Assembly (NCBI GenBank): GCA_001899805.1
Contig: MKWP01000004.1
Location: 124,001-188,000 of the forward strand
Direction: 5' to 3'
Length of the DNA stretch: 64,000 bases
DNA from: Lysobacterales bacterium 66-474
Lineage (GTDB): Bacteria > Pseudomonadota > Gammaproteobacteria > Xanthomonadales > Rhodanobacteraceae
The notes under the pieces were generated by a model. The model was not told the DNA's origin. It did no database searches and saw only the letters and a list, made by a program, of their open reading frames with translations. Positions 17,338-63,610 of this stretch are shown piece after piece (the stretch's first letter is position 1; each line of letters begins with the position of its first letter). The translations under genes were made by a program, and so were the position numbers.

Positions 17338-17420
17338 CGGCGCCGCGCTTGCCGCAGCGCCGCCTGCGCCGCTAAGGTCGCGCGCAGGCTGGCAACCGCC
17401 AGCCGACGTGAAGGCTGACG

Positions 17421-18914
17421 ATGCACGCGAACGACGATTCCGCCCGGTCCTCGCCGCAGGACGGCAGCTTCATGGGCCATCCGCGATTGTTGTGGATGCT
17501 GCTGTTCGTCACGGTCTGGTTCAACTTCGCGTTCTACGGTTTTCGCGCGTTCCTCGCACCCTACGTCGCGCAGGCATTCTTCTCCGGCCTCCCGCAAGCA
17601 CAGGCGCTGCAACAGGCCAACCTGCTGTTCGCGGGCTTCGGCACCCTGCTGTACGCGCTGACGATCCTCGGCGGATGGGTCGCCGACAATGTGCTGGGCG
17701 AGGTACGTTCGTTGCGGCTGTCGTTGTGGCTGATGATCCCGGCGTTGCTCGGGATGGCATCGCCGACGCGCACCGGCTTCGTGATGGCACTGGCGGCCTT
17801 CGTGCTGGCGGCGGGCCTCAACATCCCGCTGACGGTCTTGATCGGGCGCAACTACGCCGACAACGATCCCAGGCGCGACGCCGGCTACACGCTGTATTAC
17901 CTCGCGATCAATTTCGGCGGCTTCATCGCGCCGTTCATCTGCGCAGCGTGGATCGGCGCGCACTATGGCTATCGCTGGGGCTTCGTCGCGGCAGCGGCCG
18001 GCATGCTGCTGGGCACGCTGGTGTTCGAATGGCGGCAACGCAAACTGCCGGGCGCCGGGGACAAGCCGCGCTTCCATCGACGCTGGTCGCTGCCCGCAGT
18101 GGTGATCGCCTGTCTGGCGCTCATCGTCCCCACCGGATTGTTGATGGCTTACCCCGACGTGTTGCACTACACGGTCTACGGGCTGATGGGCGTGCTGGTC
18201 CTGTATTTCGTCGTCAGCAGCGCGCACCGCGGCGATCGCGTGCAAAACCATCGCTACGTCGCGCTGCTGTTGCTGTTCGTGGCACTGATCGCGTTCTGGG
18301 CGATGAGCCTGCTCAGTGCCAGCGCGCTGAACTTTTTCGCGCGCGACCACGTGGCGCCGCTGTGGAATGGGTCGCTGCTGGGTATGCCGTGGGACTTCAC
18401 CCTGTTCCAGTCGGTCAACCCGCTGTGCATCCTGGTTTTCGCGCCGTTCATGGCGCTGCTGTGGCCCTGGCTGGACCGGCACCGTATCAACCCGGTGACC
18501 CCGCGCAAATTCGGCATCGGCCTGCTGCTGGTGGCGCTGGGTTACGGCGTGTTGTGGTTCGCGATCGCACGGCTGCAGCTGCCGGACGGGAAGGTCGCGG
18601 CATGGACGCTGCTGGTGTGCTACCTGTGCTCGACCGTGGGCGAACTGGCGCTTTCGCCGATCGGCTACGCGCTGATCGGCAAGCTTGCCGCGCCCGATGA
18701 AACATCATTGGCGATGGGCGGCTGGTTTTTCGGGGTCGGCGTGTCGTACGACCTTTCCGGCCAGATCGCGGCCATGACCACGGCGCACGGACAAACCGGC
18801 ATTGGTGGCTATGAACATGTGTTCGCGTGGCTGCTGATCGGTGGCGTGGCGATCGCACTGGTGTACCTGATCACCGCACCGTGGATCGTGAAACTGATGC
18901 ACGGGGTGCATTGA
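17421..18914 (+). CDS. POT family (MFS) peptide transporter lacking the ExxER motif
   Basis: A 497-residue protein with about 12-14 hydrophobic segments and strong likeness to its neighbour downstream (for example FGGWVAD, INFGGFIAPFICA). POT proteins import di- and tripeptides with protons. The helix-1 motif usually reads ExxERF; here the matching stretch is VTVWFNFAFY, so the two Glu and the Arg are replaced (T, F, N). This may change proton coupling or substrate. The gene is followed 20 bp later by a POT gene with the intact motif. Confidence 0.88.
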   Translation: MHANDDSARSSPQDGSFMGHPRLLWMLLFVTVWFNFAFYGFRAFLAPYVAQAFFSGLPQAQALQQANLLFAGFGTLLYALTILGGWVADNVLGEVRSLRLSLWLMIPALLGMASPTRTGFVMALAAFVLAAGLNIPLTVLIGRNYADNDPRRDAGYTLYYLAINFGGFIAPFICAAWIGAHYGYRWGFVAAAAGMLLGTLVFEWRQRKLPGAGDKPRFHRRWSLPAVVIACLALIVPTGLLMAYPDVLHYTVYGLMGVLVLYFVVSSAHRGDRVQNHRYVALLLLFVALIAFWAMSLLSASALNFFARDHVAPLWNGSLLGMPWDFTLFQSVNPLCILVFAPFMALLWPWLDRHRINPVTPRKFGIGLLLVALGYGVLWFAIARLQLPDGKVAAWTLLVCYLCSTVGELALSPIGYALIGKLAAPDETSLAMGGWFFGVGVSYDLSGQIAAMTTAHGQTGIGGYEHVFAWLLIGGVAIALVYLITAPWIVKLMHGVH

Positions 18915-37505: not shown

Positions 37506-38252
37506 ATGAAGATTCTGGTCGCTTACAAGCGCGTGGTCGATTACAACGTGCGCATCCAGGTGAAGCCGGATGGCAGCGGCGTGGTGACCGACGGCGTGAA
37601 GCTGTCGCCCAATCCGTTCGACGACATCGCACTGGAAGAAGCGCTGCGCTTACGCGAGAAAGGCATCGCCGAGGAAGTCGTGATCGCGACGATCGCGCCC
37701 GCCGATGCGCAGGCGCACCTGCGCAACGGGCTTGCGATGGGCGCCAATCGCGCGATCCACGTGGTCACGCCCGATCCGGTGCAACCGCTCGCGGCCGCGC
37801 GCACGTTCCTGAAACTGGTCGAGAAGGAACAGCCCGGTCTGGTGATCCTCGGCAAGCAGGCCATCGATGATGACTGCAACCAGACCGGCCAGATGCTGGC
37901 CGCGCTGTGGGACCGCCCGCAGGCCACCTTCGCGTCGAAACTGGAAATCAGCGGCGACAAGGCCACGGTGACGCGCGAAGTCGACGCCGGCCTCGAAACC
38001 ATCGAAGTGGATCTTCCGGCCGTCGTCACCACCGACCTGCGTTTGAACGAGCCGCGTTTCATCAAGCTGCCGGACATCATGAAGGCCAAGTCCAAGCCGA
38101 TCGAGACCATCGAGTTGTCCACGCTCGGCATCGAGCATGGCGGCGAAATCAAGACCACACAGTACGCCCCGCCAGCCAAGCGCTCGCGTGGCGTGATGGT
38201 GAAAGATGTCGCGGAACTGGTCGGCTTGTTGAAGCAGAAGGGTTTGGTTTGA
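37506..38252 (+). CDS. etfB: Electron transfer flavoprotein, beta subunit
   Basis: EtfB binds AMP and forms the ETF heterodimer with EtfA, collecting electrons from acyl-CoA and other dehydrogenases. The 248-residue length is standard. Seen: MKILVAYKRVVDYNVRIQVK, GVKLSPNPFDDIALEEALRL, ILGKQAIDDDCNQTGQMLAA and a C-terminal helix near VAELVGLLKQKG. etfA follows after 158 bp, a wider gap than usual because a palindromic element is inserted there. A degraded copy of the N-terminus recurs at 40665. Confidence 0.97.
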   Translation: MKILVAYKRVVDYNVRIQVKPDGSGVVTDGVKLSPNPFDDIALEEALRLREKGIAEEVVIATIAPADAQAHLRNGLAMGANRAIHVVTPDPVQPLAAARTFLKLVEKEQPGLVILGKQAIDDDCNQTGQMLAALWDRPQATFASKLEISGDKATVTREVDAGLETIEVDLPAVVTTDLRLNEPRFIKLPDIMKAKSKPIETIELSTLGIEHGGEIKTTQYAPPAKRSRGVMVKDVAELVGLLKQKGLV

Positions 38253-38257
38253 TTTGC

Positions 38258-38388
38258 TTTCCCCTCTCCCTCCGGGAGAGGGTGGCGTGAAGCGCCGGGT
38301 GAGGGTCCGGATCTTCGACAAAAGTTCGCCGAGACTCGTACCCTCATCCGCCCCTTCGGGGCACCTTCTCCCGGAGGGAGAAGGAGAA
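38258..38388. repeat. Palindromic element, family R4, between etfB and etfA
   Basis: Starts with CCCTCTCCCTCCGGGAGAGGG and ends with CTTCTCCCGGAGGGAGAAGG, with CCCCTTCGGGG in between. About 130 bp, the intergenic version of the element found in frame in trpS and E2. It could create an RNA hairpin that sets the etfB:etfA ratio. Confidence 0.85.
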
Positions 38389-38410
38389 TCCAGAACCGAG
38401 TGGTGGAACC

Positions 38411-39355
38411 ATGTCCAAAATCCTGGTCATCGCCGAACACTTGAACGGCCAACTCAACGCCTCGACCGCGCGCTGCGTCACCTGCGCGAAGGAGATCAAG
38501 CCGGACGCCATCGACGTACTGGTGCTGGTCGATGCGCCCGATGCCGTGGCTGCGCAAGCAGCAAAACTCGATGGCATCAGCAAGGTTCTGACCATCGCTC
38601 GCGCCGAAAACGCGCACGCGCTGGCCGCCGTGCTGGCGCCGCAGATCGCGGCTGCCGCGAAAAACGGCTACACGCATTTGCTGTTCCCTTCGACCACCTT
38701 CGGCAAGGACGTCGCACCGCGCGTGGCCGCGCTGCTGGGCGTCGGCCAGGTCAGCGACATCATGTCGGTGACCGGCGCACACACCTTTACGCGACCGATC
38801 TACGCCGGCAACGCCATCGTCACCGTCGAAGCACCGACCGACGCGACCGTGGTCGGCACTGTACGCACCGCGTCGTGGCCGGCCGTGGGCGACGCGGCCA
38901 GTGCCGCCCCGGTCGAAGCATTGTCACTCGATGTGTCGCTGCCCTCGCACACGCGTTTCGTGAAATTGCAGCAGGCTTCCAGCGAACGCCCCGACCTGCA
39001 AAGTGCGTCGAGAGTGGTGTCGGGCGGACGCGGACTGGGTTCGAAGGAAAACTTCGACATCATCTACAAGCTCGCCGACAAACTGCACGCCGCGGCCGGC
39101 GCCTCGCGCGCCGCGGTCGATGCGGGCTATTGCCCCAACGACATGCAGGTCGGCCAGACCGGCAAGATCATCGCGCCCGAGCTCTACATTGCGATTGGCA
39201 TCTCCGGCGCCATCCAGCACCTCACCGGCATCAAGGACGCCGGCACCATCGTCGCGATCAACAAGGACGCCGAGGCACCCATCTTCGAAGTCGCCGACAT
39301 CGGCCTCGTCGGCGACCTGTTCAAGCTCGTGCCGGAGCTGGAGGCAATGGCGTAA
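38411..39355 (+). CDS. etfA: Electron transfer flavoprotein, alpha subunit
   Basis: EtfA holds the redox FAD of ETF. The 314-residue protein has the N-terminal domain ([19 protein letters not shown]) and the C-terminal FAD domain with [53 protein letters not shown] and [20 protein letters not shown]. Its ATG is 22 bp after the palindromic element. The electron acceptor, ETF-QO, is encoded at 32336-33988. A diverged copy of the FAD domain lies at 40810-41261. Confidence 0.97.
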
Positions 39356-44231: not shown

Positions 44232-44912
44232 ATGAAGAAAATCTTTTCAACCATCGGGAAGCTGCTTCCTCTGATCAGATTTCGAGAATCCTCGAAATAC
44301 TGGGAGGATCGCTACCGTCTCGGCGGGGAGTCCGGGGAGGGTTCACGCGGGATGAACGCCGAATACAAAGCGTCGGTGATCAACCGCTTCATAGCCGAAC
44401 ATGACGTGCGTTCGTTGATCGAATTCGGTTGTGGTGACGGAGTGCAACTCGATATGTTCAACGCCTCCGCTTACATCGGAGTGGACGTGAGCCGGACGGT
44501 AATTCAACAGTGTCGCACGCGTTTCTCGAACGACGCGAGCAAAAGATTTATTCTGACCAACGATTACGTGGGAGAAGGCGGGGATCTTTCCCTGTCTCTC
44601 GACGTGATCTTTCATCTCGTCGAGGATCCGGTATACAACACGTATCTCGAACGACTGTTCGCCGCGGCGGAACGCTATGTGCTGATCTACTCAACCAGCA
44701 CAGATCTTCGGGACACCGGGGTGCCGCATGTACGACACCGGGATGTCGCCGCAGACGTGCGCCGGCTCTTCCCGCAATTCGAACGCATGGCCCCAGAGGA
44801 GGAACGTCTGCCGCCGCCGGTTCGGTTTGATCGCGGGCTGCCGACACGCTTCTTTATGTACCAACGTCAAGGCGCGATCCGTCAGGGAATGGGTGACCAT
44901 ACCGAGCTATAG
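44232..44912 (+). CDS. SAM-dependent methyltransferase-like protein
   Basis: A 226-residue protein with motif I SLIEFGCGDGVQLDMF (about 62-77), YIGVDVSRTVIQQC and LSLDVIFHLVEDP. The N-terminus KYWEDRYRLGGESGEGSRG resembles methyltransferases of polysaccharide and polyketide clusters. Last gene of the four-gene cluster. Its 3' end overlaps the convergent metallopeptidase gene by 31 bp (44882-44912), with no terminator visible between them. Confidence 0.78.
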   Translation: MKKIFSTIGKLLPLIRFRESSKYWEDRYRLGGESGEGSRGMNAEYKASVINRFIAEHDVRSLIEFGCGDGVQLDMFNASAYIGVDVSRTVIQQCRTRFSNDASKRFILTNDYVGEGGDLSLSLDVIFHLVEDPVYNTYLERLFAAAERYVLIYSTSTDLRDTGVPHVRHRDVAADVRRLFPQFERMAPEEERLPPPVRFDRGLPTRFFMYQRQGAIRQGMGDHTEL

Positions 44913-47134
44913 GATTGGGAGATGTGCTGTCCGGTGAATCCATTTCCGTTGCTCGTCCAGATGACAAGGTTGTGGGCACTGTTGGTCCAAAGGAGGTCGG
45001 CCTTCCCATCCCCATTGAAATCGCCCGTAGCAACAAGGTAATAGCCAGCGCCCGTAGCTTGGTTATTCATGGACAGTACCCGGATTCCGTTCATGGTCCA
45101 CCAACCGAAGTAGCTGCTCGTTGAATTGGAGAACAACAAATCGGCCTTTCCATCTCCATCCACGTCGCCGGCGCCCAAAAGTTTCCATCCCGGCCCGTAG
45201 GACTGGATATGTTGTCCGACGAAACCGGATCCCGTGCTCATCCAGATGACGAGGGCTCGACTGGCGTTGGTCCAGGCAATGTCAACCTTACCGTCACCGT
45301 CGAAATCGCCGATCGCAGCGACCGAGTAACCCGAGCCGGTAGCCTGGTTGTTCATGGACAGTACTTGTGCCCCGTTCATGATCCACCACCCGAAATAGTT
45401 GCTCGTCGGATTTTGAAACAGCAGATCGGCCTTGCCATCGCCATCTACATCGCCAGCGCCCACGACCTTCCATCCCGGCCCCACAGTTGCAACGTATTGT
45501 GACGTGAAGCCTGAGCCGTTACTCAGCCATATATAAAGCGCGTTCGACTTGCTTATCCAAACGATGTCGGCCTTCCCGTCGCCATTGAAATCACCGGTCG
45601 CAACCACGCTGTAACCCAAGGTCATGGATTGATTACTTGTCGACGTCACCTGGGTGCCGTTCATCAGCCACCATCCAAGGTAGCCTTGGCTTGTGTTTTG
45701 GAACAGCAAGTCGGATTTGCCATCTCCGTTGACATCGTTGTGGAGGGATGCTCTTAGTGGGGGTGGCGTGCCCACTGTGGTCGGCTCGAACGCCGCGATC
45801 AGCGCCGCGGTATTGTTCAAGCTGTGCACGTTGTCGGCAGAACTCGTTGTATTGCTGTCCGGCACGCCGCAAGGGCTGTTCTGACAAGTGGAAATGTTGG
45901 GATTGGAAAATACGGAAAGCGGTGTGGCGGTCTTTGCGCCATAGGCCATGATGGTCGAGAACCCGCTGGCACCGTTGCCGAGGTAACCGTAGGAGTACGA
46001 GTACGCACCAGGTTCGGTGGCATTGGCACGATCGTGCGCGCTACCCATGTTGTGGCCGAGTTCGTGCGCGAAGGTGGTGTCGAGGCAGAAATAACCGCCA
46101 CTCTTGCCGTCGCTGACCACGTTGTAGCCGTAGGGTTTCTGCTGGCTCGGCACGATCTGGGTCATGTTCCCGCCAATCAGCCAACCCACGCCACAACCAC
46201 CTTGCGTGGCGTTGTCGTAGCCGCGGAGAAGCGTGACCAGATCGGCGCCATATTGGTCGCGCAGCGAGGCGACGTTTTGCAGCGACGCGGGAATGGGTAC
46301 GGTGCCGCCGCTTTCATTGATGCCGGTGATGTCATCCAATGCACTCTGGTTGGAAGTGTTGTCCGGGTAATTGACCTCGGCCGTCTTGACCAGGCGAATT
46401 TGCTGGTTGACGCCGCTGCTCGTGTACGCCGCGTTGGTCACGTCGACAAGGTTCTGGATGCGCGTCAATGTCTTACTCTGGCTACCCATCGCACTGACGT
46501 AGCCAGAGGTGTAGACAACCATCACGTCAATGGTGACGGGACCACTCGCAGCCGCCTGCACGGGTGCGGCATCAGCCACGCTCGGCGTCGCCGTGGCCAG
46601 AGAGACCCCCTTCGGATTCACCTTGGGTGGAATCACGTAGTCGCGTGCGCTGCTCACGCGCAGCGCCTCGGCCGACTGCGCCATGGCCGTGGCGGAAGTC
46701 TCCACCACATGGGTCCCCGCGGCATTCGACACGATCCGCAGCGGATACCCGGATGCCTGCGGGATCAGGCCGAACACGCTCTTGTCCGCACCGAACGTCA
46801 ACACCACGGGTTGCGCGCCGTGCACCGTCTCGACGGAGCCGACCCAAGTCCAAGTGCCATTGGCATGCAGGATGTGGCGTTGGTATTTAGCGTAGATGCG
46901 TCCGCCGGCGGGGTTGGGCAACCACATGCCGCCCTGGAACACCGCATCGAATGCATTGTCTTCGCTGACCTTGATGGGCCAGGATTTCTGGGCACCCTGC
47001 GCGAGCACTTCGGCCTTGCCGGAAGCCATGGAAAACAAGGTCGGGGTTGATGCCGCCATCGCAGCAGGCAGGCACCCGACCAGCAACGCAACAGACAGGA
47101 GGTACTTGAGGGCAGGCAGCAAGGGACGCGACAT
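44882..47134 (-). CDS. Secreted metzincin-type metallopeptidase with six calcium-binding VCBS/FG-GAP repeats
   Basis: A 750-residue protein: signal peptide (YLLSVALLVGCLPAAMAA), propeptide-like region, metalloprotease domain with zinc motif HELGHNMGSAHD (about 355-366) and a possible Met-turn TIMAYG (about 394). From about residue 465 come six repeats of the D-x-D-G-D-G-K-x-D type (DVNGDGKSD, DFNGDGKAD, DVDGDGKAD, DFDGDGKVD and so on), each about 45 residues and alternating in two forms. The repeats probably form a calcium-bound propeller for surface or glycan contact. The start at 47134 gives the signal peptide. Target unknown. Confidence 0.88.
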   Translation of the reverse strand: MSRPLLPALKYLLSVALLVGCLPAAMAASTPTLFSMASGKAEVLAQGAQKSWPIKVSEDNAFDAVFQGGMWLPNPAGGRIYAKYQRHILHANGTWTWVGSVETVHGAQPVVLTFGADKSVFGLIPQASGYPLRIVSNAAGTHVVETSATAMAQSAEALRVSSARDYVIPPKVNPKGVSLATATPSVADAAPVQAAASGPVTIDVMVVYTSGYVSAMGSQSKTLTRIQNLVDVTNAAYTSSGVNQQIRLVKTAEVNYPDNTSNQSALDDITGINESGGTVPIPASLQNVASLRDQYGADLVTLLRGYDNATQGGCGVGWLIGGNMTQIVPSQQKPYGYNVVSDGKSGGYFCLDTTFAHELGHNMGSAHDRANATEPGAYSYSYGYLGNGASGFSTIMAYGAKTATPLSVFSNPNISTCQNSPCGVPDSNTTSSADNVHSLNNTAALIAAFEPTTVGTPPPLRASLHNDVNGDGKSDLLFQNTSQGYLGWWLMNGTQVTSTSNQSMTLGYSVVATGDFNGDGKADIVWISKSNALYIWLSNGSGFTSQYVATVGPGWKVVGAGDVDGDGKADLLFQNPTSNYFGWWIMNGAQVLSMNNQATGSGYSVAAIGDFDGDGKVDIAWTNASRALVIWMSTGSGFVGQHIQSYGPGWKLLGAGDVDGDGKADLLFSNSTSSYFGWWTMNGIRVLSMNNQATGAGYYLVATGDFNGDGKADLLWTNSAHNLVIWTSNGNGFTGQHISQSYSSVWSPIP

Positions 47135-47328
47135 GGCCAGTTCCGCGAATGTAAACGAATGTGCCTTTATATCAGCGATGCCACCACACCACACTGCGGC
47201 TTGGCACACAATTCAGGTGGGGTTGCCTTTGTGCTGCCGAAAACGAGGCCAGCATCACAGGCATTCCGGACCACGCCCGGCACGGGTCGAGCTCCCTGCC
47301 GAGGCCCGAGCGCCATCGGTCGATCCGC

Positions 47329-52990: not shown

Positions 52991-55900
52991 CTATGCATGG
53001 AAGCCGGAAGTCCGATCCTCGCACACATCCGGACCCGGCGTCGCCGAGCGGCCGTCCAATTTGATCACATCGAGCAGTTGGTGCGTGCTCTGGCGCCACG
53101 TCAACGGCGTGGGCGTCGGCACATCCGGCAGCCGGCCTTGCTGCGCGCGGATCTCCCAATCGGAAATCGCGCGCACCAGTTCCGTGGCATTGGCGGCGTC
53201 GAAGTAAACGACCGCTTCCCCAGCCACCTCATGGAACACCGGTAGATTCCTCGCGAGCACCGGGATGCGATGGCGGGCAGCCTCGATCAGGGGCAGGCCG
53301 AAACCTTCGCCGAACGAAGCCGCCAGCAACACACTGGACGCGGCGTAAACCGAACCAAGCGCCTCGTCACTCAGCGCCTCGAACCAGAACAACCGCCGGC
53401 CTGACTCGGGGTGCCCGCGCAAGCGCCCGACCAGTGCTTCCGTATGCCAGCCCGGCTTGCCCACGATCGCAAGGCACGCCTGGCTCCCCTGCGACCAAAG
53501 CATTTCGAACGCATCGAGTGCCTGCGCGTAGCCCTTGCGCGCCTCGACGGTACCGACCATCAGGAACACGCGGCGCTTGCGCCAGCGTGCCAGCGCGCGC
53601 GCCGTTTCCGCCCTCGTGCCCGTAGTCGGCTTGCTCGATTCAATATCCGAACCCAAGTGGAACCATGCGATCTCGAGCGGCTCACTGCGGGCCGGGCGCG
53701 CGCGCTCCAGCCAATGGGAAAATTCGCCGGCCACGGCCCGCGAAATCGCGACCACGCTGTTCGAAACCCTGGCGACGGAACGTCGCCATTGGTCCAGCCA
53801 ACCGACCAAATCTTCCGGGAACCACTCCGGATGCAGTGCAGCCAGCATGTCGTACAGGACGAAATGGATGCGGACTCCCTGCCTGCGCATGCGCAGCAGC
53901 GCACGCTCGCACCCCGGCACGATGTGCGGGGCCAGATCGAGACCAAGGAAAACATCGCCATCCGACACGTCGACTCGGCTGTCCGATTTGGGCGCTGCAC
54001 CGATGCCGAGAAACCGGCTCGTGAAGGCACGCGCATACCTGTACCCGGCGCCGCCTTCGCCATACACGGCATAAACCGGTTCCACGCGAAAGCCTTCCGG
54101 GGGGAACCGCAGCAGCTCCAGCACGATGCTGCGCACCACGCGCTGGATTCCGCTGTGGGCATCGGTGGTCGAGAGCTGTGAAACATCGACCAGCAACTGG
54201 CGCTGCGAGACGTCCTGGGGAACAACTTCGGCGAGCGCCTGTGCTGCATGCTCGATGTCTCCCGGCTGGGCGACGGTGCCCGTGGTGCGCGCAATCAGTT
54301 CTTGTGCGACACGGTGCATTCGACGGTGCGAACTGGTGGCATGGAAATTTTCGATCGCAGCCCGGTATCGCGCGGCGATCCGGGCCGGGTCGTGCATCTG
54401 CTCGAGGTAGGCACGCCCCGCCCGGCCCAGCGCCTCGCGGCGTGCCATATCGTCCGATAGCGATTCCAGCGCCGCCGCCAACTCCCGATCTTCGAACTCA
54501 TCGGAGATCATGCACACGGCATCCGCGGGCAATTCCGCAGCCGACCCGTGCGCGTTCGCGATCACTGCGCGCCCGGATGCGAAGCCATCCAGAATCGCGG
54601 CCGAGGTTTCCCCGCGCGAACTGGCTCGCAACTGCACTACCACGTCGGCGGCCGCAAGGTAGAGATCGTAGATGGCCGCGTCGACGTAGCCCGTGATCCT
54701 TACCTGCTCCTCGATGCCGCGTTCACGAGCCTGTCCCAGCAGCGACGCAGTGAATGCGTTGTCATGGCTGTCGCCCACGAACACGAGCAGACCGCCATGC
54801 GCTTTCGCCAGTCGGGAAAGCCCCCACGCGGAAACGAGCCGGTCGCAGAGCTTGGGCGGATTCACGACCCCGAAACTGGCAACCACGAATCCGGCGTCCG
54901 ATATCCCGAGTGCGCGACGCGCCTCTTCGCGGGAACAAGGGTTCCGTTTGGAGCGAAGCAGCGGGATGTGCAACATGCGGGCAGTCGCGGCTTCCCCATA
55001 CCAGCTCGCCGCCAGCCGCTTGCAAAAACCGGAATGCACGATGACCCCGTCGCTGTCACGCAGAACGTTCCAGTTGCTGGGATATTTCCGCGCGACCTCA
55101 CCGGGGGCGGCTCCGTCGCACTGCGCAAGCAGCGCGCGGTAGCCGTGGGATTCGTACAAGGCGCGCGTCCAGAACCCGGAATCGGAGCCCGACGCGGCAA
55201 CGTGCGCACTGATATGGCCGAGATAGAAATCGTGCAGTACCGCGGTCCCGGGGTGTCGCGACAACAAGTCAAACATGTGCCCGTGGAAAGACGAATTGCC
55301 GACCTGGTAAAGCACGCGGTCATAGTGCGCGGCGTGGCGATCGAACCACTCGCTGCTTCGCCACTGGCAGCCCAACGGCACGCATGCGCCGATTTCCGCC
55401 TGATCGCTCACGACCTCGATTTCGTAGTGGCGAGTCAGTTCCGGCAACAGTTCTGCGCCATAATCCGCGATGCCCGTTCGTTCCGGGGGCAGGGGCGAGA
55501 CATACGCAAGACGGGGTTTTCTGCCGGACGAATCGTGCACCGGTGGCACCCCGTGTGCCGCGTGTACCGCCTCCATCGCCTCCAGTGCGCGCCGCGCACT
55601 CTCGTCCCACGAAAACTGCTTCGCCCGCTCCAATCCACGCTCCGACAATGAACGCCGGAACCCCGCGTCCTCCAGCACCCGGCTCATCAATCCGGCCATC
55701 GCCTCCTCGTCATGCGGATCGAACAACGCGTCGCTCCGCCCCACCACCTCCGGCAAACTCGACGTGTTCGACGCGATCACCGGCGCCCCGCAAGCCATCG
55801 CTTCCAGCGCCGGCAATCCGAATCCTTCATGCCACGACGGAAACACGAACAACTTGCACAGGTTGTACAACGCCACCAAATCCTCGTCGCTGACAAACCC

Positions 55901-56776
55901 CGTCAACACCAGGTCGCCGTCCCGCAAGCCCGCCTGCCGCGCCAGCCCGACCAGCCGCTCGCGATCGGCATCCGACACCCGGCATACCACCGCCAACTGG
56001 TGTTTTCCCCGCAGTTCGGCCGGCAGTTTTGCGAACGCGCGGATCAGGCCTTCGATATTCTTGCGATGATCGATGCCGCCCGTGTACATCACGAACGGAC
56101 GCGTCAGCCCGTAGCGCGCGCCAAGCTGTGCTTCACGCCGCGCCTCCATCGCCTCGCGACGGAAAATGTTGTTCGCTGCCGTGGAAATGTTGACGACGCG
56201 CTCAGGCGACAAGTCCAGCAATTCGATCGCCTCGCGTCGTGACGCATCGGAAATTGCAAGCAGCAGCCGCGCTCGACGCAGTTCGTCAAGGCGTTCGTAA
56301 TAGAAATCTCTTGGCACCGGGTGGCGAAGATATACATCGCGGTGCACCAACGGGATGAGGTCGTACAGCGTGACCGCCACCGGTGCGGCCTCCGCCGAAT
56401 CCGGAACTGCCGCCACAGCATCGTCAGCCCATCCTTCGAACAGGCTGGCGACATGCACGAAGTCGGGATCGAGCGCAGCAATGAACGCCTGGCGGTGAGC
56501 CTCGGCGCGGCCGCGGTTGCTGCGACCTTCCGCGTGCTCGGCGGCGGTGGGCCACGGGGATCGCCACGTCACCACGCGATCGGGAGCGATCAATCCCTGC
56601 AAATCGTTGCGTATCGTATCCGCGGAGTCCGGCAACCTCTCGTTCAACATGACAAGGAATTCGTGTCCGGCTCCCCGCTTGAGCATGGCTGTCGCCAGCG
56701 CCCAGGAATAACGCCCTATTCCGCGCTGGCGGCTGCTGCCAGTCTGGCAGGCCTGCAGGTCAAGAACGATGCGCAC
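52991..56776 (-). CDS. Three-module glycosyltransferase (GT4 x3)
   Basis: A 1261-residue protein with three GT-B modules in a row: module 1 about 1-410 (MRIVLDLQACQTGSSRQRGI, EGFGLPALEAMACGAPVIA), module 2 about 420-795 (LAYVSPLPPERTGIADYGAE, then FASGRAVIANAHGSAAE) and module 3 about 858-1240 (LLVDVSQLSTTDAHSGIQRV, GEGFGLPLIEAARHRIPVLA). Fused transferases of this kind build repeating polysaccharide units, for example mannan or rhamnan O-antigens. Its ATG overlaps the upstream GT4 gene by 17 bp. Module 1 shares a nearly identical DNA tract with that gene. Confidence 0.88.
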   Translation of the reverse strand: MRIVLDLQACQTGSSRQRGIGRYSWALATAMLKRGAGHEFLVMLNERLPDSADTIRNDLQGLIAPDRVVTWRSPWPTAAEHAEGRSNRGRAEAHRQAFIAALDPDFVHVASLFEGWADDAVAAVPDSAEAAPVAVTLYDLIPLVHRDVYLRHPVPRDFYYERLDELRRARLLLAISDASRREAIELLDLSPERVVNISTAANNIFRREAMEARREAQLGARYGLTRPFVMYTGGIDHRKNIEGLIRAFAKLPAELRGKHQLAVVCRVSDADRERLVGLARQAGLRDGDLVLTGFVSDEDLVALYNLCKLFVFPSWHEGFGLPALEAMACGAPVIASNTSSLPEVVGRSDALFDPHDEEAMAGLMSRVLEDAGFRRSLSERGLERAKQFSWDESARRALEAMEAVHAAHGVPPVHDSSGRKPRLAYVSPLPPERTGIADYGAELLPELTRHYEIEVVSDQAEIGACVPLGCQWRSSEWFDRHAAHYDRVLYQVGNSSFHGHMFDLLSRHPGTAVLHDFYLGHISAHVAASGSDSGFWTRALYESHGYRALLAQCDGAAPGEVARKYPSNWNVLRDSDGVIVHSGFCKRLAASWYGEAATARMLHIPLLRSKRNPCSREEARRALGISDAGFVVASFGVVNPPKLCDRLVSAWGLSRLAKAHGGLLVFVGDSHDNAFTASLLGQARERGIEEQVRITGYVDAAIYDLYLAAADVVVQLRASSRGETSAAILDGFASGRAVIANAHGSAAELPADAVCMISDEFEDRELAAALESLSDDMARREALGRAGRAYLEQMHDPARIAARYRAAIENFHATSSHRRMHRVAQELIARTTGTVAQPGDIEHAAQALAEVVPQDVSQRQLLVDVSQLSTTDAHSGIQRVVRSIVLELLRFPPEGFRVEPVYAVYGEGGAGYRYARAFTSRFLGIGAAPKSDSRVDVSDGDVFLGLDLAPHIVPGCERALLRMRRQGVRIHFVLYDMLAALHPEWFPEDLVGWLDQWRRSVARVSNSVVAISRAVAGEFSHWLERARPARSEPLEIAWFHLGSDIESSKPTTGTRAETARALARWRKRRVFLMVGTVEARKGYAQALDAFEMLWSQGSQACLAIVGKPGWHTEALVGRLRGHPESGRRLFWFEALSDEALGSVYAASSVLLAASFGEGFGLPLIEAARHRIPVLARNLPVFHEVAGEAVVYFDAANATELVRAISDWEIRAQQGRLPDVPTPTPLTWRQSTHQLLDVIKLDGRSATPGPDVCEDRTSGFHA

Positions 56777-58073
56777 GGTTCAATTCCTCGCTTGCCCGGG
56801 CAGAGTCCGCCGGCCTTGGTGCATGCATCGACTCAAGCCTCCTTGCAGACCGTTCTTCATGCACCGCCTCCATCGCCTCCAGTGCGCGCCGCGCACTCTC
56901 GTCCCACGAAAACTGCTTCGCCCGCTCCAATCCACGCTCCGACAATGAACGCCGGAACCCCGCGTCCTCCAGCACCCGGCTCATCAACCCAGCCATCGCC
57001 TCCTCGTCATGCGGATCGAACAGCGCGTCGCTCCGCCCCACCACCTCCGGCAAACTCGACGTGTTCGACGCGATCACCGGCGCCCCGCAAGCCATCGCTT
57101 CCAGCGCCGGCAATCCGAATCCTTCATGCCACGACGGAAACACGAACAACTTGCACAGGTTGTACAACGCCACCAAATCCTCGTCGCTGACAAACCCCGT
57201 CAACACCAGGTCGCCGTCCCGCAAGCCCGCCTGCCGCGCCAGCCTGACCAGCCGCTCGCGATCGGCATCCGACGCCTTTCCGACCAGCACCAACTGGTGC
57301 GCGGTCCGGCATGCAACAGGCAAGCCGGCAAACGCGCGGACCAGGCCTTCCACGTTCTTGTGGCGATCAACCCCGCCCGTGTACATCACGAACGGACGCA
57401 CAATACCCGCGGCTGTGCGCACGGCATCCTGTGCCGGTCCGCAAACGGACAAACGTACGAATCCCGCATCCACGGAGGAAGAAACATTCACGATGCGGCT
57501 GGGCTGCAAATCGAGCTGATCGATGGCCTCTCGCCGCGTGTGCGCGGAGACCGCGAACAGCAGGCGTGCGCGTTTCAGCGAATCGAGCCTGCGCGCATAC
57601 CAGGCTTTGGCTTGCGGCGACGGAAGATAGATTTCCGGGTACAGCCACGGAATCAGGTCATGCAGCGTGATCGCGACCGGAGCAGCCGCTGCGTCCACGG
57701 GGACCGACGCAATGGCGTCATCGCCAAACCCTTCGAACAGGCTGCCCATGTGCAACCAGTCGGGTTGCAGCGAATCGACGAACGCCTCGCGAAGCACTTC
57801 CCCGCTGCAAGAACGCCACGCATTCGCGGGGTCGGCGGCAGCGGTTGGTCCCGGCACTTCCCATTCGTGGATGCGGGACGGCGGGACCAGATCCCGCAGT
57901 TCCCGGCGCAGGTCCGGGAGCGAGTCGGGAAACGCGCCATTGAGCATGACCCGGAATTCATGCCGGCTGCCGCGCTTCAACATCGCGCGCGTAAATGCCC
58001 AGGTTGAACGTCCGATCCCGCGGAAGCGGCTGCCACTGGTCTGGCACGCTTGCAAATCAAGAACGATGCGCAT
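56760..58073 (-). CDS. GT4 family glycosyltransferase
   Basis: A 437-residue GT-B enzyme, close paralogue of module 1 of the following 1261-residue protein (MRIVLDLQACQTSGSRFRGI). Donor site: HEGFGLPALEAMACGAPVIA. It starts 17 bp inside the preceding FkbM gene and ends 17 bp inside the next, so the three genes are tightly coupled. DNA at 56863-57273 is about 99% identical to 55566-55976 downstream, whereas flanking parts are much more diverged. ManC in the same locus suggests a GDP-sugar donor, which is inference. Confidence 0.9.
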   Translation of the reverse strand: MRIVLDLQACQTSGSRFRGIGRSTWAFTRAMLKRGSRHEFRVMLNGAFPDSLPDLRRELRDLVPPSRIHEWEVPGPTAAADPANAWRSCSGEVLREAFVDSLQPDWLHMGSLFEGFGDDAIASVPVDAAAAPVAITLHDLIPWLYPEIYLPSPQAKAWYARRLDSLKRARLLFAVSAHTRREAIDQLDLQPSRIVNVSSSVDAGFVRLSVCGPAQDAVRTAAGIVRPFVMYTGGVDRHKNVEGLVRAFAGLPVACRTAHQLVLVGKASDADRERLVRLARQAGLRDGDLVLTGFVSDEDLVALYNLCKLFVFPSWHEGFGLPALEAMACGAPVIASNTSSLPEVVGRSDALFDPHDEEAMAGLMSRVLEDAGFRRSLSERGLERAKQFSWDESARRALEAMEAVHEERSARRLESMHAPRPADSARASEELNRAHRS

Positions 58074-59688
58074 CCTTGTCCCCTTCGGATCCACCCAATC
58101 GTATCTCTTCGAGCAACTGTTTCGCCTTGCGCCCGCGTTCCGAAAGCGCATCCAGAGAGTCTGTCATCCCGGGCGATCCTTCCCGCTTTTCCTGATCGCC
58201 CGAAGTATGGCCTGCGTCGGCTCGCAAGTCACCGTGGTTGCGCGGGGACACCTGCGTTTCGGCCGACGGCGCTCCAAACAGGAACAGACGTGCAGTTTCG
58301 GTGAAACGCGAGTGCTTGCCGAGCGATCCCGTCACGGCGGAACGGGCGAGGCGTGACTTGGCCGCGCCGCGCAAGACTGGCTTGGCAAGACGCGCCAATG
58401 GCCTGAACACGATGAAAGCCGCGCGCAGGATAACCCGTTTCAGCCGCCGGGTAGCATTCCCGGCCGTCCTGAGCGGAGCCGTGATGCGCCACGAACGGCT
58501 CGCGTGCATGCTGCCGACTTCGGCCTCCCATTGCCGGCACAGATCATTTGCTCCGGCGAGTTTCAGCTCGGCGCGCGCACGTTCCTCCTCCCGGGCGCGC
58601 CGCGTGTCTTGCAAAGCCTGATCGGATGCCCAAAGCATGCCTTGCAGCTGCTCGCCGGATGCCCTAAGCGTGGCCAGCTCGGCTTCTCGCCGGCCGGCTT
58701 GCGTTCGCAGGAGGAGATGTTGCGCCTTGATACCCTCGATCTGCGCATCCTGCTCGGCGATAGCGGTGCGCAAAAGGTCGCGCTCACTTTCCACGTTCGT
58801 GATGTGTGCATCGCGCGTGGCCAGGACCATCCGCAACTCGTCGCGCTCACCTTCCACATTCGTGATGTGCGCATCGCGCGTGGCCAGGACCATCCGCAAT
58901 TCGTCGCGCTCGCTCTGAAGCCGCCCTGCGCGCTCCGCTGAACGCGATTGCTCGAGTTCGGCAGTCAAACGGGCTATGTGCTTCTCACGACGTACGTCGA
59001 TCTCGCGCACGGCCCCATCCAGCGCATTGGGCGGGGTTTCAAACGACCGCTGCAATTCCACGTGTTCGCGGGCGATGTAAAACCTGTTCAGGCCATCAGA
59101 GTAGACGTGCACGTATTCCTTGCCGGTCAGAATGGGTTCCCATTCCTGCCACGTCGGTTCGGTACTGTTGGGTTCGGTGGCTTCGACGAGTACCACCCAC
59201 GGCCTGATTTTCGTGAACGACATCCCCCTCAAGGCCTGCAGTTCCGCACCCTCGCAATCCATCTTGAGAAAATGGACGAGGTCTATCTGATGCTCCGAGC
59301 AAATCCCGTCGAGTGTCACGCAAGCGACGGTGTGGTCCGTGACCAGCAACCCCTGTTCGCGATGACGGCGCGCGAATTCGGCGTTGCAGGTCGACAGGCC
59401 CGTTCCCTCCACTTCGAACAACCGGAGACTACCCGCGCTATCTGAGGCCGCAACCTGCAAATTGATGTCATGCGGACGATCCGCGACCAGACGCTTGTAC
59501 CAGTGTGCAACGGGCTCGATGTTGATACCCCGCCATCCGCGCTCGTAGAAAGCCTTGGTCACCGAATCCACGACAGGATCCTGGGCGCCCACGTCGATGT
59601 AAAAGCCCCTCTGGATATCCTTGAATGCACGGTGAAGCATGATGTCTTCACCGTTTTGGGCGTAGCTGATGAAGTTTTCCGTGTTCAT
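58057..59688 (-). CDS. FkbM methyltransferase fused to a coiled coil
   Basis: A 543-residue protein. Residues about 1-215 are a FkbM-type SAM methyltransferase (YAQNGEDIMLHRAF, GFYIDVGAQDPVVDSVTK, FLKMDCEGAELQALRGM). Residues about 235-395 are charged heptad-rich coiled coil, including 21-residue tandem units at 260-280, 281-301 and, weaker, 302-322. Residues about 400-455 form a basic, amphipathic stretch, and the tail is polar. First gene of the operon with two GT4 genes. By analogy with WbdD it may cap the polysaccharide and set its length. Confidence 0.82.
   Translation of the reverse strand: MNTENFISYAQNGEDIMLHRAFKDIQRGFYIDVGAQDPVVDSVTKAFYERGWRGINIEPVAHWYKRLVADRPHDINLQVAASDSAGSLRLFEVEGTGLSTCNAEFARRHREQGLLVTDHTVACVTLDGICSEHQIDLVHFLKMDCEGAELQALRGMSFTKIRPWVVLVEATEPNSTEPTWQEWEPILTGKEYVHVYSDGLNRFYIAREHVELQRSFETPPNALDGAVREIDVRREKHIARLTAELEQSRSAERAGRLQSERDELRMVLATRDAHITNVEGERDELRMVLATRDAHITNVESERDLLRTAIAEQDAQIEGIKAQHLLLRTQAGRREAELATLRASGEQLQGMLWASDQALQDTRRAREEERARAELKLAGANDLCRQWEAEVGSMHASRSWRITAPLRTAGNATRRLKRVILRAAFIVFRPLARLAKPVLRGAAKSRLARSAVTGSLGKHSRFTETARLFLFGAPSAETQVSPRNHGDLRADAGHTSGDQEKREGSPGMTDSLDALSERGRKAKQLLEEIRLGGSEGDKDAHRS
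58723..58911 (-). repeat. 63-bp tandem repeats encoding three heptads each
   Basis: Two units (58849-58911 and 58786-58848) are nearly identical: ERDELRMVLA...AHITNVE plus Gly or Ser. A third, diverged unit (58723-58785) starts ERDLLRTAIA. Each is 21 residues, exactly three heptads, so copy-number change would lengthen or shorten the coiled coil without breaking its register. Confidence 0.85.
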
Positions 59689-60040: not shown

Positions 60041-61453
60041 ATGCTCTCCCCGGTAATCCTCAGCGGCGGCAGCGGAACGCGCCTGTGGCCGCTTTCGCGC
60101 AAGAACCTGCCCAAGCAATTCCTGGCCTTGAGCGGCGACTCCACGCTGTTCCAGCAGACCGTTGCACGCACCCGCGAGCTTGAGGAGGTCGCTGCACCGA
60201 TCATCGTGTGCAGCGAGGAACATCGATTCCTGGTCGCCGAACAACTGCGGGGACTCAAAGTGGAAGGCGCTTCGATCCTGCTGGAACCCATGCCGCGCAA
60301 CACGGCGCCGGCCATCGCGCTGGCGGCCTTGCGGGCATTGGCAATGGACAAGGATCCAACGCTGCTGGTGCTGCCCGCCGACCACTTGATCGGAGACACG
60401 GCCAGCTTTGCCGATGCCGTCGGCAAGGCCTTGCCCTTGGCGGAACAAGGCTGGCTGGTCACGTTCGGCATCCGTCCGGAAGCGCCGGAAACCGGCTTCG
60501 GTTACATCAAACGCGCGGAAGCGACGGGCGCGGGGGCGTTCCGGGTGGAGCGCTTCGTCGAGAAGCCCGATGCGGATACGGCAAAACAGTACGTCGAAGC
60601 AGGCGACTACGAATGGAATTCGGGCATGTTCTTGTTCAAGGCACAACGTTACCTGGATGAACTGCAACAACACGCGCCCGCAATATACGCGGCCAGCAAA
60701 AAGGCATTCGAAGCGGCCAAGGCCGACCTCGATTTCGTGCGGATCGACAAGCAAGCCTTTGAGGCCTCGCCCGACAATTCGATCGACTACGCGGTGATGG
60801 AAAAGACCACGCGCGCGGCGGTGGTGCCGGTGAGCTGCGGGTGGAGCGACATCGGTTCATGGGATGCGCTGTGGGCGGCATCCACACGGGACGGCGACGG
60901 CAATCGGCTGGAAGGCGATGTGATCGCCATCGACAGCCGCAACTGTTTCGTGCGCGGCACCGATCGGAGGCTGGTGGCCGCTCTGGGCCTCGAAGATATC
61001 GTGATCGTGGATACCCCGGATGCCGTGCTGGTCGCGCCGCGTGTGCGCGTGCAGGAAGTCAAGAGGCTCGTCGACCGGATCAAATCGGACGGGCGTCAGG
61101 AGCACCTGTTCCATCGCAAGGTTTATCGCCCATGGGGGAGCTACGACTCCATCGACATGGGCGATCGCTTCCAGGTCAAGCGCATCACGGTGAAACCCGG
61201 CGCCGCACTGAGCCTGCAAAAGCACCATCACCGCGCCGAACACTGGGTCATCGTATCCGGCACCGCTGAAGTCACTCGCAACGAGGAAGTGTTCATGGTG
61301 GCGGAAAACGAAAGCACGTTTCTTCCATTGGGCGCCGTGCATCGCTTGCGCAACCCCGGCAAAGTACCGCTGGAGTTGATTGAGGTGCAGTCCGGTAGCT
61401 ATCTGGGCGAAGATGATATCGTGCGGCTGGAAGATGTGTATGGAAGGACCTAG
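60041..61453 (+). CDS. manC: Mannose-1-phosphate guanylyltransferase / mannose-6-phosphate isomerase
   Basis: A 470-residue bifunctional enzyme (AlgA/XanB type). The N-terminal nucleotidyltransferase has LSGGSGTRLWPLSRKNLPKQ (about 7-26), and FVEKPD is the mannose-1-phosphate site. The C-terminal cupin isomerase has QKHHHRAEHWVIVSGTAEV (about 394-412) and GAVHRLRNPG. It makes GDP-mannose, the precursor for mannose, rhamnose or fucose in the polysaccharide. It is transcribed away from the FkbM operon and converges on wzt. Confidence 0.95.
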   Translation: MLSPVILSGGSGTRLWPLSRKNLPKQFLALSGDSTLFQQTVARTRELEEVAAPIIVCSEEHRFLVAEQLRGLKVEGASILLEPMPRNTAPAIALAALRALAMDKDPTLLVLPADHLIGDTASFADAVGKALPLAEQGWLVTFGIRPEAPETGFGYIKRAEATGAGAFRVERFVEKPDADTAKQYVEAGDYEWNSGMFLFKAQRYLDELQQHAPAIYAASKKAFEAAKADLDFVRIDKQAFEASPDNSIDYAVMEKTTRAAVVPVSCGWSDIGSWDALWAASTRDGDGNRLEGDVIAIDSRNCFVRGTDRRLVAALGLEDIVIVDTPDAVLVAPRVRVQEVKRLVDRIKSDGRQEHLFHRKVYRPWGSYDSIDMGDRFQVKRITVKPGAALSLQKHHHRAEHWVIVSGTAEVTRNEEVFMVAENESTFLPLGAVHRLRNPGKVPLELIEVQSGSYLGEDDIVRLEDVYGRT

Positions 61454-61595: not shown

Positions 61596-62819
61596 TCATG
61601 ACACCAGCACCTCGATCACGGGAGGGACCCACGCGCTGCCGACGAAATGGTCGCGGTCTTGGTTGGCAACGGTGAATACCAAGGCGAGATCGCGCCACTC
61701 GTAATTGTTGACCAGATGGGTATCGGTGCTGCACAAGGCCGTGGATACCGAATAGCTGCCCGGGCCGAAGTTCATGGGAAAAGCCACCCGGTATTCCACC
61801 ACCGCACCCTTTCGCACACCTTCCAGTGATTGCCCGGTGTGGTGCGTATTGGTTCCGAACACCGGCTGACCCAGTCGATCCTTGATCATGTAGCCGAACA
61901 CCAGTCGCGGAATGTCGTCTTGGACGGCAATCCGCGCGCGCATTTCAGCCGCTTCTCCGACGTTGACGAATTCCACCGGCTCGCCTGCCGCGTTGAACAG
62001 TCCGATCGATTCGACCACGGCCTCGCGGGTACCCGAAATGGTCTGCGTTCCACCGCCGAGCTGCCGCACCTCGACGGTTGCGTTCTCCCGCTCGGCGATC
62101 AGCGCGTTGTAGTAATCCATCACCTGGCTTGGCTCGCCATCCAGCAGCAGCCGCCCGTGATCGAGCAGGATCGCGCGATCACACAGGGACTGGACGGCGC
62201 CCGGATCGTGCGAAACGAACAGCAGCGTGGTACCCTCCTCGCGGAATCGCCGTATGCGCGCCATGCTCTTGTGCGAGAAATACGCGTCGCCCACCGACAA
62301 CGCCTCATCGACGATGAGGATCTCCGGACGCACCGCAGTCACCACGCTGAACGCGACTCGCATCTGCATGCCGCTGGAATAGGTGCGCAACGGCTGGTCG
62401 AAATACTCGCCGATCTCGGCGAATGCCTCCGCCTCCGGAATGATCGCATCGATCTGGTCGGGGCTCATCCCCATTAAGCCCGCGGTGTAGCGGGCGTTCT
62501 CACGGCCGGTCAAGTCGGCATTGAAGCCCATGCCGAGTTCGAGGATCGCGGCGATGCGCCCGCTGACGGCGATCGAGCCTTCGGTGGGACGCAGCGTGCC
62601 AGTCACGAGCTTCAGGAGCGTACTCTTGCCGGCGCCGTTCTGCCCCACGATGCCCACGCTCTCGCCGGCGTTCACCTGGAACCCGATGTTGCGCAGCACC
62701 CACACTTCGCTCGTGGCCTTCGATGCAATGCCGAACCACGTCAGCACCCGACGCCATTCCGCCCGGTATTCGCGGAAGGCCTTGCCAAGTCCTTCCACCT
62801 GCAGCACCGGGGCGCTCAC
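61596..62819 (-). CDS. wzt: Polysaccharide ABC exporter, ATP-binding subunit with C-terminal substrate domain
   Basis: A 407-residue protein. The ATPase part has Walker A GIVGQNGAGKST (about 57-68), signature TYSSGMQMRVAFS and Walker B ILIVDEALSVGDAYF. Residues about 255-407 form an extra domain like the Wzt C-terminal domain, which binds the modified non-reducing end of some O-antigens (E. coli O8/O9a). The GTG start at 62819 overlaps the wzm stop (GTGA). The presence of this domain fits export of a terminally modified glycan. Confidence 0.92.
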   Translation of the reverse strand: MSAPVLQVEGLGKAFREYRAEWRRVLTWFGIASKATSEVWVLRNIGFQVNAGESVGIVGQNGAGKSTLLKLVTGTLRPTEGSIAVSGRIAAILELGMGFNADLTGRENARYTAGLMGMSPDQIDAIIPEAEAFAEIGEYFDQPLRTYSSGMQMRVAFSVVTAVRPEILIVDEALSVGDAYFSHKSMARIRRFREEGTTLLFVSHDPGAVQSLCDRAILLDHGRLLLDGEPSQVMDYYNALIAERENATVEVRQLGGGTQTISGTREAVVESIGLFNAAGEPVEFVNVGEAAEMRARIAVQDDIPRLVFGYMIKDRLGQPVFGTNTHHTGQSLEGVRKGAVVEYRVAFPMNFGPGSYSVSTALCSTDTHLVNNYEWRDLALVFTVANQDRDHFVGSAWVPPVIEVLVS

Positions 62820-63610
62820 AGCACGTCCACCATGTCGGGCGAGGCGCGCCGGAACAGAAGCATTCCGACCGTCAACAACACCAGCGACAACACCACGATC
62901 GCGCCCAGCGTCTTCAAGTGCGGCAGGTGTCCCCACAGCAGTACCTGCTGGTACGACGAGCAGATCGCGTACATCGGGTTTAGCCTCAACACCGGCGCGA
63001 AATGGCCGGGCAGGATGCTGATGGCATAGACGATCGGTGTCAGCCAGAACCACAACTGCATGACCACGTTCGTTACCTGCGCCACGTCGCGCACGAACAC
63101 GTTCAGCACACCGAGGATCAGGCCCAGAGCCAACCCGAACAACAGCGTGATGGCTATCAAAACCGGCAACCACAACCACATCCAAGTCGGATAATTGCCG
63201 ACGAGCATGAAAATGAAGAGGGTCGCCGCCAGCAAGAACAGGTTGTTCAGCAGGCACGATCCCGAGACGATCAGCGGCAGGCAGATGCGCGGGAACACCA
63301 TCTTCTTCAGCAGGCTGGCGTTGTCCACGAAGATCGTGAGGCAGCGCGTGATCAGTTCGGCAAACAGCGTCCAGCCCAACAGACCGCCCAGCAGATAGAC
63401 CACATAGGCATATTTGTTGTTGGTATCAGGCAGGCGGCTGCCCAGGATCTGCCCCAGCACCAACGCGTAGATGGCACCCTGCGTCAAGGGTTGCAGGATG
63501 GCCCAAGTCGCACCCAGTTTGCTGCGCGCGAAGCGGGTGCGCAGGTCGTTCCTGATCGAGGTCAGGATGAAGTGGCGGTAATGCCAGACGGCGATCAGCA
63601 TCAACTTCAT
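62816..63610 (-). CDS. wzm: Polysaccharide ABC exporter, membrane subunit
   Basis: A 264-residue permease of the ABC-2 type with six hydrophobic segments and the family N-terminus ILTSIRNDLRTRFARSKLGA, followed by WAILQPLTQGAIYALVLG. It forms the channel with Wzt for lipid-linked O-antigen or exopolysaccharide across the inner membrane. The start at 63610 (MKLMLIAVWHYR) is preferred to upstream in-frame codons. ATTATC at 63683-63688 (GATAAT on the minus strand) could be the -10; the 174 bp upstream hold no gene. Confidence 0.93.
   Translation of the reverse strand: MKLMLIAVWHYRHFILTSIRNDLRTRFARSKLGATWAILQPLTQGAIYALVLGQILGSRLPDTNNKYAYVVYLLGGLLGWTLFAELITRCLTIFVDNASLLKKMVFPRICLPLIVSGSCLLNNLFLLAATLFIFMLVGNYPTWMWLWLPVLIAITLLFGLALGLILGVLNVFVRDVAQVTNVVMQLWFWLTPIVYAISILPGHFAPVLRLNPMYAICSSYQQVLLWGHLPHLKTLGAIVVLSLVLLTVGMLLFRRASPDMVDVL

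Follow-up and report, generated by a model that had tools for sequence, protein, structure and literature searches.

A predicted coiled-coil protein with an FkbM methyltransferase head beside wzm and wzt in Lysobacterales bacterium 66-474: a likely WbdD-type chain terminator and ruler

The gene fkbM-CC of Lysobacterales bacterium 66-474 (Rhodanobacteraceae) encodes an FkbM methyltransferase domain carried on a long predicted coiled coil, and stands in a locus with the ABC transporter genes wzm and wzt and with genes for polymerase-like glycosyltransferases. It lies in a stretch of 64,000 nucleotides (GenBank assembly GCA_001899805.1, contig MKWP01000004.1, positions 124,001 to 188,000 of the forward strand), which at its full length is called the window and to which all coordinates refer unless another record is named. 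We consider it likely that the protein is a chain terminator and molecular ruler of the WbdD type in which the catalytic head is an FkbM domain. The gene and the features of its product are as follows.

58057 to 59688, minus strand: fkbM-CC, 543 residues from ATG to stop, predicted chain-terminating methyltransferase with a coiled-coil ruler.
59122 to 59595, minus strand: FkbM methyltransferase domain, residues 32-189 (PF05050; coordinates computed from residue numbers).
58504 to 58938, minus strand: predicted coiled-coil helix, residues 251-395 (AlphaFold2 single-sequence model and heptad score; Fourier test negative).
58777 to 58911, minus strand: tandem unit of 63 bp (21 residues, three heptads), 2.1 copies (Tandem Repeats Finder, TRF).
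58468 to 58500, minus strand: SxSWRxTxPLR motif (SWR motif), with S399, W400, T403 and R407 invariant and a similar motif in Escherichia coli WbdD.
58357 to 58470, minus strand: residues 407-444, a basic helix of moderate amphipathicity, predicted to dock on membrane and polymerase (low-confidence model, charge, and WbdD as described in PMC11231755).

The N-terminal head is assigned by Pfam to PF05050 at E 1.3e-23 (84.4 bits against a curated cut-off of 22.7) and by the NCBIfam model TIGR01444 at E 2.4e-20. FkbM is the only domain that the Pfam scan of the protein returned, with no kinase domain and no glycosyltransferase module. Enzymes of the FkbM family are general O-methyltransferases. In an alignment of 27 proteins of the bacterial family, which excludes L037, cut short by a contig end, and L055, interrupted by a gap of N, the residues D32, G34, K142, D144, E146, G147 and E149 of the domain are invariant, and from knowledge of the enzyme family these are presumably S-adenosylmethionine (SAM) site and acidic residues. 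The invariant columns of the alignment fall within residues 10-224, that is the FkbM domain and its edges, and then at the four residues of the SWR motif. It has to be asked whether the FkbM domain is a catalytically dead end of a spacer, with termination performed by another cellular methyltransferase, since different methyltransferase heads occur in other loci of the same Wzt clade; the invariance of the putative SAM-site and acidic residues argues against a dead head, which we regard as extremely improbable. The FkbM part of the AlphaFold2 single-sequence model has a predicted local distance difference test (pLDDT) score below 50, and a fold search with this model gave no match at E<=0.001, as would be expected at such scores in the enzyme part. 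A search of the protein against genome contigs gave a single match, 60% over 25 residues, in a Saprospiraceae record.

C-terminal to the head, the model predicts one helix over residues 251-395 (block pLDDT 81-94 up to residue 390), which is broken at the SRSWRITAP segment and is followed by the second helix, residues 407-444, at a pLDDT of 44-62. The catalytic domain is thus predicted to sit at the distal end of an extended coiled coil. Heptad character was assessed with a custom register-tracking score against 200 shuffles, with FkbM and Wzt segments as controls. The score of the fkbM-CC protein exceeds that of all 200 shuffles (z 4.0, p 0.005), and p<=0.01 is reached by 22 of the 27 proteins of the family, this one included, and p<=0.05 by 25, whereas at p<=0.05 neither the 29 FkbM segments nor the 40 Wzt segments contribute a single case. 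A cruder Fourier test at a period of 3.5 residues is not significant for the fkbM-CC protein (z 0.1, p 0.40) and gives p<=0.01 in 13 of the 27. In a profile search of the PDB, the best 60 of 141 matches (E<=10) all fall within profile positions 217-449, the best at E 0.014, which would lend weak support to the coiled coil and says nothing on the head. On these results the coiled coil has good support across the family and moderate support in the fkbM-CC protein itself. The 38 residues C-terminal to the motif carry a net charge of +10, and the best 18-residue helical moment of this tail exceeds that of shuffled tails (p 0.022), with p<=0.05 in 13 of the 27 proteins. A preliminary description of the window, made from the letters alone, had named the N-terminal methyltransferase, the long coiled coil, 21-residue tandem units and a basic amphipathic tail; all four were recovered here, the helix of the tail with low confidence.

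The genes around fkbM-CC bear directly on its function and are listed next.

56760 to 58073, minus strand: gt4a, GT4 glycosyltransferase of 437 residues, 36% identical to WbdA residues 1-423, with a 17-base overlap with fkbM-CC.
52991 to 56776, minus strand: gt4b, three-module GT4 glycosyltransferase of 1261 residues, WbdA-like polymerase (Pfam, BLAST).
60041 to 61453, plus strand: manC, GDP-mannose supply, between wzt and fkbM-CC.
61596 to 62819, minus strand: wzt, ABC transporter ATPase carrying a C-terminal domain (start calculated from the protein length of 407 residues).
61629 to 62042, minus strand: Wzt_C domain, predicted to recognize the glycan or its cap (PF14524, E 1e-36; coordinates computed).
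62816 to 63610, minus strand: wzm, ABC transporter permease (PF01061; 41% identical to Wzm of E. coli O9).

With the starts as chosen (gt4a from 58073 and gt4b from 56776), 17-base overlaps join fkbM-CC to gt4a and gt4a to gt4b, in agreement with the overlapping operon with two GT4 genes of the preliminary description, which had also noted manC, wzm and a wzt with an additional C-terminal domain nearby. The gt4b protein holds three GT4 stretches.

This arrangement is shared by relatives. A survey of 233 genomes of the family at E<=0.001 matched 38, of which 29 carry the FkbM head, so that there are 28 further copies besides the one described here; the other 9 matched genomes were left out of the counts as partial matches, and in five of them (L061, L063-L066) no FkbM head was found at E<=1e-8. 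Upstream and on the same strand, wzt is found at 28 of the 29 genes (L050 being counted although its Wzt is partial, at a contig end), and relatives do keep the Wzt neighbor that had been expected of them; a GT4 homolog lies downstream at 28 of the 29. In a class-wide sample of 274 genomes searched at E<=1e-30, the fkbM-CC genome was joined by one strong match, from another family (G361), and two weaker ones to the head only.

A closer comparison can be made with the O9 system of E. coli, in which WbdA is the polymerase recruited by WbdD. The wzt DNA of the fkbM-CC locus has matches in 221 of 5426 E. coli genomes. The top 15 are annotated as O9 family, and a set of 40 taken from along the whole ranking comprises 37 of the O9 and 3 of the O99 family. 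The E. coli O9 locus reads manC-rfbK-wzm-wzt-methyltransferase-wbdA, and its methyltransferase, unnamed in the record, was taken as WbdD by its place and by its length of 708 residues, which is that of WbdD (PMC3482155). The order wzm-wzt-terminator-polymerase is common to the FkbM-CC loci and E. coli O9. Identity to E. coli O9 is 53% for the nucleotide-binding domain (NBD) of Wzt, 41% for Wzm and 22% over 78 residues for the C-domain of Wzt. By BLAST the gt4b protein aligns with both halves of WbdA, its residues 1-401 with WbdA 1-401 (38% identity) and its residues 859-1235 with WbdA 455-828 (39%). The class I methyltransferase head homologous to that of WbdD is absent from the fkbM-CC protein, and BLAST of the FkbM head against the methyltransferase and the kinase of WbdD gave no match. 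An hhalign alignment in which the FkbM domain fell on the kinase of WbdD (95% probability, E 1.8e-8) was judged a chance result, being centered on an RPW segment and made with a single-sequence template. BLAST aligns only the coiled coil and tail with WbdD (residues 296-492 with 494-677, 27% over 207 residues, E 6.7e-4). Since such a match could reflect mere composition, a profile of the motif region, built from 44 proteins with none from E. coli, is the stronger test. This profile finds residues 570-609 of E. coli O9 WbdD at E 8.5e-10, at the end of the WbdD coiled coil, and residues 590-627 of the E. coli O99 terminator at E 1.9e-7, against none at E<=0.01 among 1000 shuffles of the two proteins. 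The WbdD motif, SRSWRMTKGYR, follows directly on the predicted coiled coil. Beneath a different head, the protein thus has a C-terminal end resembling the one found in an established ruler, and together with the basic tail the match to WbdD 570-609 suggests a C-terminal docking region.

The WbdD-like reading is the best supported because wzt lies upstream in nearly every locus, the C-terminal module is that of WbdD and the downstream glycosyltransferase is homologous to WbdA. For docking, terminal methylation, ruler action and cap recognition we infer, by analogy with WbdD, the following course, in which the identity of the sugar is inferred as well. The C-terminal module, consisting of the SWR motif and the basic helix, would dock on the membrane and on the neighboring WbdA-like GT4 polymerase, and the coiled coil would keep the FkbM domain at a set distance. 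A lipid-linked mannan or D-rhamnan chain, once long enough, would reach the FkbM domain, which would O-methylate the non-reducing terminal sugar and so stop elongation, and Wzt, through its C-terminal domain, would accept the capped chain for export. Gain or loss of repeat units in the coiled coil would change the distance. Either glycan could be made, since gmd is present at another place in the genome (C9:7824-8831, followed directly by a weaker match at 8992-9600). The general O-methyltransferase activity of the FkbM family would also suit an enzyme that decorates internal residues of the O-polysaccharide, its coiled coil a mere tether to the polymerase and chain length set otherwise. This is very unlikely in view of the position of the head, which a coiled coil separates from a C-terminal module of the WbdD type, and of the neighboring Wzt with its Wzt_C domain. 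The preliminary description had proposed a terminator and ruler, which stands as the favored reading. It had also called the system an independent version, and this part does not hold: the transporter, the polymerase and the C-terminal module are akin to those of E. coli O9, and the catalytic head alone is without a BLAST match, so that an independent invention is not indicated.

The rod between head and motif differs in length between species. The distance from the invariant block on the FkbM side to that of the motif runs from 86 to 333 residues in the 27 proteins. In fkbM-CC itself TRF finds the 63-bp unit with a 94% match between copies, and two consecutive 21-residue stretches of the protein differ at 1 residue. 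Of the 29 genes, 13 have tandem arrays in the coiled-coil part, 14 in all by TRF (4980 residues), compared with none in the FkbM domain (6438 residues), 3 in the tail (3210 residues), none in wzt (12475 residues) and 3 in the GT4 genes (33491 residues). The arrays of the coiled-coil part have eight periods, 21, 30, 42, 54, 63, 69, 108 and 138 bp, and 7 of the 14 are multiples of 21 bp. Among the 21-bp arrays two are weak (65% match) and one stands beside an assembly gap (L055). A homologous unit of 138 bp (46 residues) is common to related species. It is present in four copies in G186 (spacing 46, 46, 46), in three in G166 (spacing 46, 46) and in two, spaced 46, in G187, where a degenerate third element lies 39 residues further on; in genes that are conserved in other respects, a single unit thus varies in copy number. 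The proposal of the preliminary description that length is tunable by repeat number is thus borne out at the level of genomes, as repeat copy number differs between species. Assemblies also break within the repeats: L055 has 92 N beside a 7-residue array, and in L037/L062 (G158) the contig ends inside the 46-residue repeat region.

The same repeats could come from neutral replication slippage in a sequence that repeats easily, in a protein that does terminate chains but whose rod length is without effect. Slippage would give what is seen in part, namely units that differ by lineage and arrays of which half are not multiples of 7 residues. However, ruler action has been reported for WbdD of E. 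coli O9 and WbbB of O12 (PMC11231755), and the motif module of WbdD is shared here. Heptad character is moreover kept at p<=0.05 in 25 of the 27 proteins despite the turnover of their sequence, and we hold a rod of no consequence to be rather unlikely.

The head is exchanged among Wzt loci of the family. Sixty further Wzt_C loci of the family, taken from the upper part of the match list and not at random, carry other heads beside wzt or elsewhere in the locus: Methyltransf_11-coiled coil-SWR-glycosyltransferase fusions, Methyltransf_24 and DUF4214-Methyltransf_23 proteins, further Methyltransf_12-type proteins with WbsX or a glycosyltransferase, and a methyltransferase upstream of wzm. A Wzt tree was made of 87 proteins (L050 was left out for its partial Wzt, and L040 has no Wzt), of which 81 bear a head label and 6 none; labels were set by tblastn, with L057 set by hand to FkbM on account of the FkbM gene adjoining its wzt. 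Head type changes 7 times on this tree, compared with a mean of 46.7 and a minimum of 40 in 200 shuffles, and 3 times among the 33 FkbM and DUF4214-Methyltransf_23 loci. Co-segregation of Wzt and head was dropped as proof of cap recognition, as the NBD and C-domain trees behave alike. Within the genus, the head appears to have been swapped between congeners. The Wzt of G015 is 91.7% identical to that of the fkbM-CC locus and its C-domain 90.5%, and the counterpart gene (L067:2-1576, minus strand), which lies past manC where fkbM-CC stands here, encodes a DUF4214-methyltransferase protein unrelated to FkbM-CC, with a coiled coil scored in its middle and no SWR motif found; further open reading frames (ORFs) lie between manC and wzt in G015.

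Several of these observations, with some others, weigh against the favored reading. The 91.7% identical Wzt of G015 with its unrelated head leaves two possibilities: one cap is produced by both heads, or the cap goes unread by Wzt. The same methyl cap from both is the simplest reading. The G015 protein, in which no motif was found, must dock otherwise. Co-segregation of Wzt with the head is as strong for the NBD as for the C-domain, so that linkage within the operon may account for it by itself. One FkbM-CC gene (L040, genome G066) has no Wzt_C match in its genome, and its nearest Wzm/Wzt homologs are about 32 kb away. The FkbM protein of G361 has almost no coiled coil and is possibly a ruler-less form; in that locus (L139:9007-10194 and 17236-17994) Pfam finds no Wzt_C in the Wzt. 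In the fkbM-CC protein the Fourier test sees no heptads, tail amphipathicity reaches p<=0.05 in fewer than half of the proteins, half of the arrays fall outside multiples of 7 residues, and the coiled-coil repeats may be neutral slippage. Finally, methylation by WsaE of Geobacillus stearothermophilus is independent of chain length in vitro (PMC2943079).

The motif module reaches beyond the family. Its profile matches at least 36 of 252 genomes of the class at E<=0.001, the fkbM-CC genome included, a lower bound since at most 23 candidates were scored per genome. The motif is borne by 18 of 20 proteins scanned with Pfam, one of the 18 from the same family as fkbM-CC. The domains N-terminal to it include glycosyltransferases, PIG-L and class I methyltransferases, with one weak match to a sulfotransferase; C-terminal to it lie a glycosyltransferase, RgpF or WbsX; and in two of the 18 Pfam finds no domain. 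Proteins of other gammaproteobacteria that bear the SWR coiled-coil end include one with a PIG-L domain (L146), one with a weak sulfotransferase match and GT2 (L147) and one with a partial PIG-L and GT2 (L166). Short SWR ORFs without a head also occur (L089:189-644, 152 residues; L082:99-626, 176 residues; L096:6114-6458, 115 residues), those of L089 and L082 preceding a large GT4-like gene and that of L096 lying between manC and wzt. Tentatively, and with somewhat less than an even chance of being right, a coiled coil ending in SxSW[RK]xTxP(L)R can be viewed as a portable chassis, common to WbdD and many further proteins of surface glycans, on which unrelated heads are exchanged while transporter and polymerase are kept, and whose rod length changes by in-frame tandem duplication. 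FkbM-CC would then be a new class of terminator, and the SWR motif the hallmark of docking on the polymerase. The heads would include FkbM, several class I methyltransferases, PIG-L deacetylase-like domains and glycosyltransferases, and perhaps sulfotransferase-like domains.

Some further features of the window and genome may be recorded. A 300-bp stretch is 99% identical between both GT4 genes (55563-55862 and 56860-57159); polymerase modules have probably undergone a recent duplication, or gene conversion with one another. A metB gene (cystathionine gamma-synthase-like, named by eye) lies past wzm, outside the window, and etfBA-like genes, also named by eye, lie at 37506-39355; the position of the fkbM-CC locus resembles the metB-etfA placement described for xanthomonad lipopolysaccharide loci (PMC2238763). 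On the far side of the locus, at 44882-47209 on the minus strand, there is a large ORF whose product, judged by eye, resembles a secreted metalloprotease (HELGHNMGSAHD motif) and has FG-GAP-like repeats. The genome holds a second Wzt_C match (G000:C16:120980-121393, L134), and two ABC-type glycan exporters may therefore coexist.

That terminators with a coiled coil can bear a variety of heads is established (PMC11231755; PMC3482155). A possible ruler was proposed in 2026 in a methyltransferase of E. coli O101 whose coiled coil is C-terminal (PMC13168486), and an Ochrobactrum FkbM methyltransferase has been suggested to control O-polysaccharide length (PMC10888714), an article whose main text makes no mention of Wzt or Wzm. 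In the open-licence PMC literature, an FkbM-coiled-coil architecture beside Wzm/Wzt, a shared SWR motif and a repeat series of this kind were not found. The locus would predict which methyltransferase makes the O-antigen cap in 29 genomes. With the 46-residue unit in 4, 3 and 2 copies, related species supply a ready-made series of lengths of one molecular ruler, and the SWR motif is a candidate marker, at the sequence level, of the end by which glycan rulers dock. The exchanged heads allow it to be asked in nature whether it is the cap or the chain that Wzt reads.

Four known systems can be set beside it. WsaE also has an N-terminal methyltransferase tied to Wzm/Wzt export, and a terminal 2-O-methyl cap role has been proposed for it (PMC2943079), but by description it is a methyltransferase fused to two glycosyltransferase domains, whereas here the polymerase is separate and the head is FkbM. 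The Klebsiella pneumoniae O4, O7 and O12 terminators likewise place varied catalytic heads on a coiled-coil ruler; the O4 Kdo (3-deoxy-D-manno-octulosonic acid) transferase and the O7 methyltransferase-kinase are unlike FkbM, of which the text makes no mention (PMC11231755). The DUF4214-CC-Methyltransf_23 proteins (L067, L074, L075, L087, L103, L106; CC, coiled coil) belong to the same Wzt clade, and L067 and L075 score as coiled coil while L074 does not, but their methyltransferase is at the C-terminal end, the head is unrelated and no SWR motif was found. WbdD of E. coli O9/O9a, a methyltransferase-kinase with a coiled-coil ruler, differs from the protein described here in its head, here FkbM without a kinase domain, in the diverged Wzt_C domain of its locus and in the 21-residue tandem repeat found here, while gene order, an N-terminal catalytic head, the coiled coil, the SxSWRxT module, the WbdA-like polymerase, and Wzm with the NBD of Wzt are alike in both.

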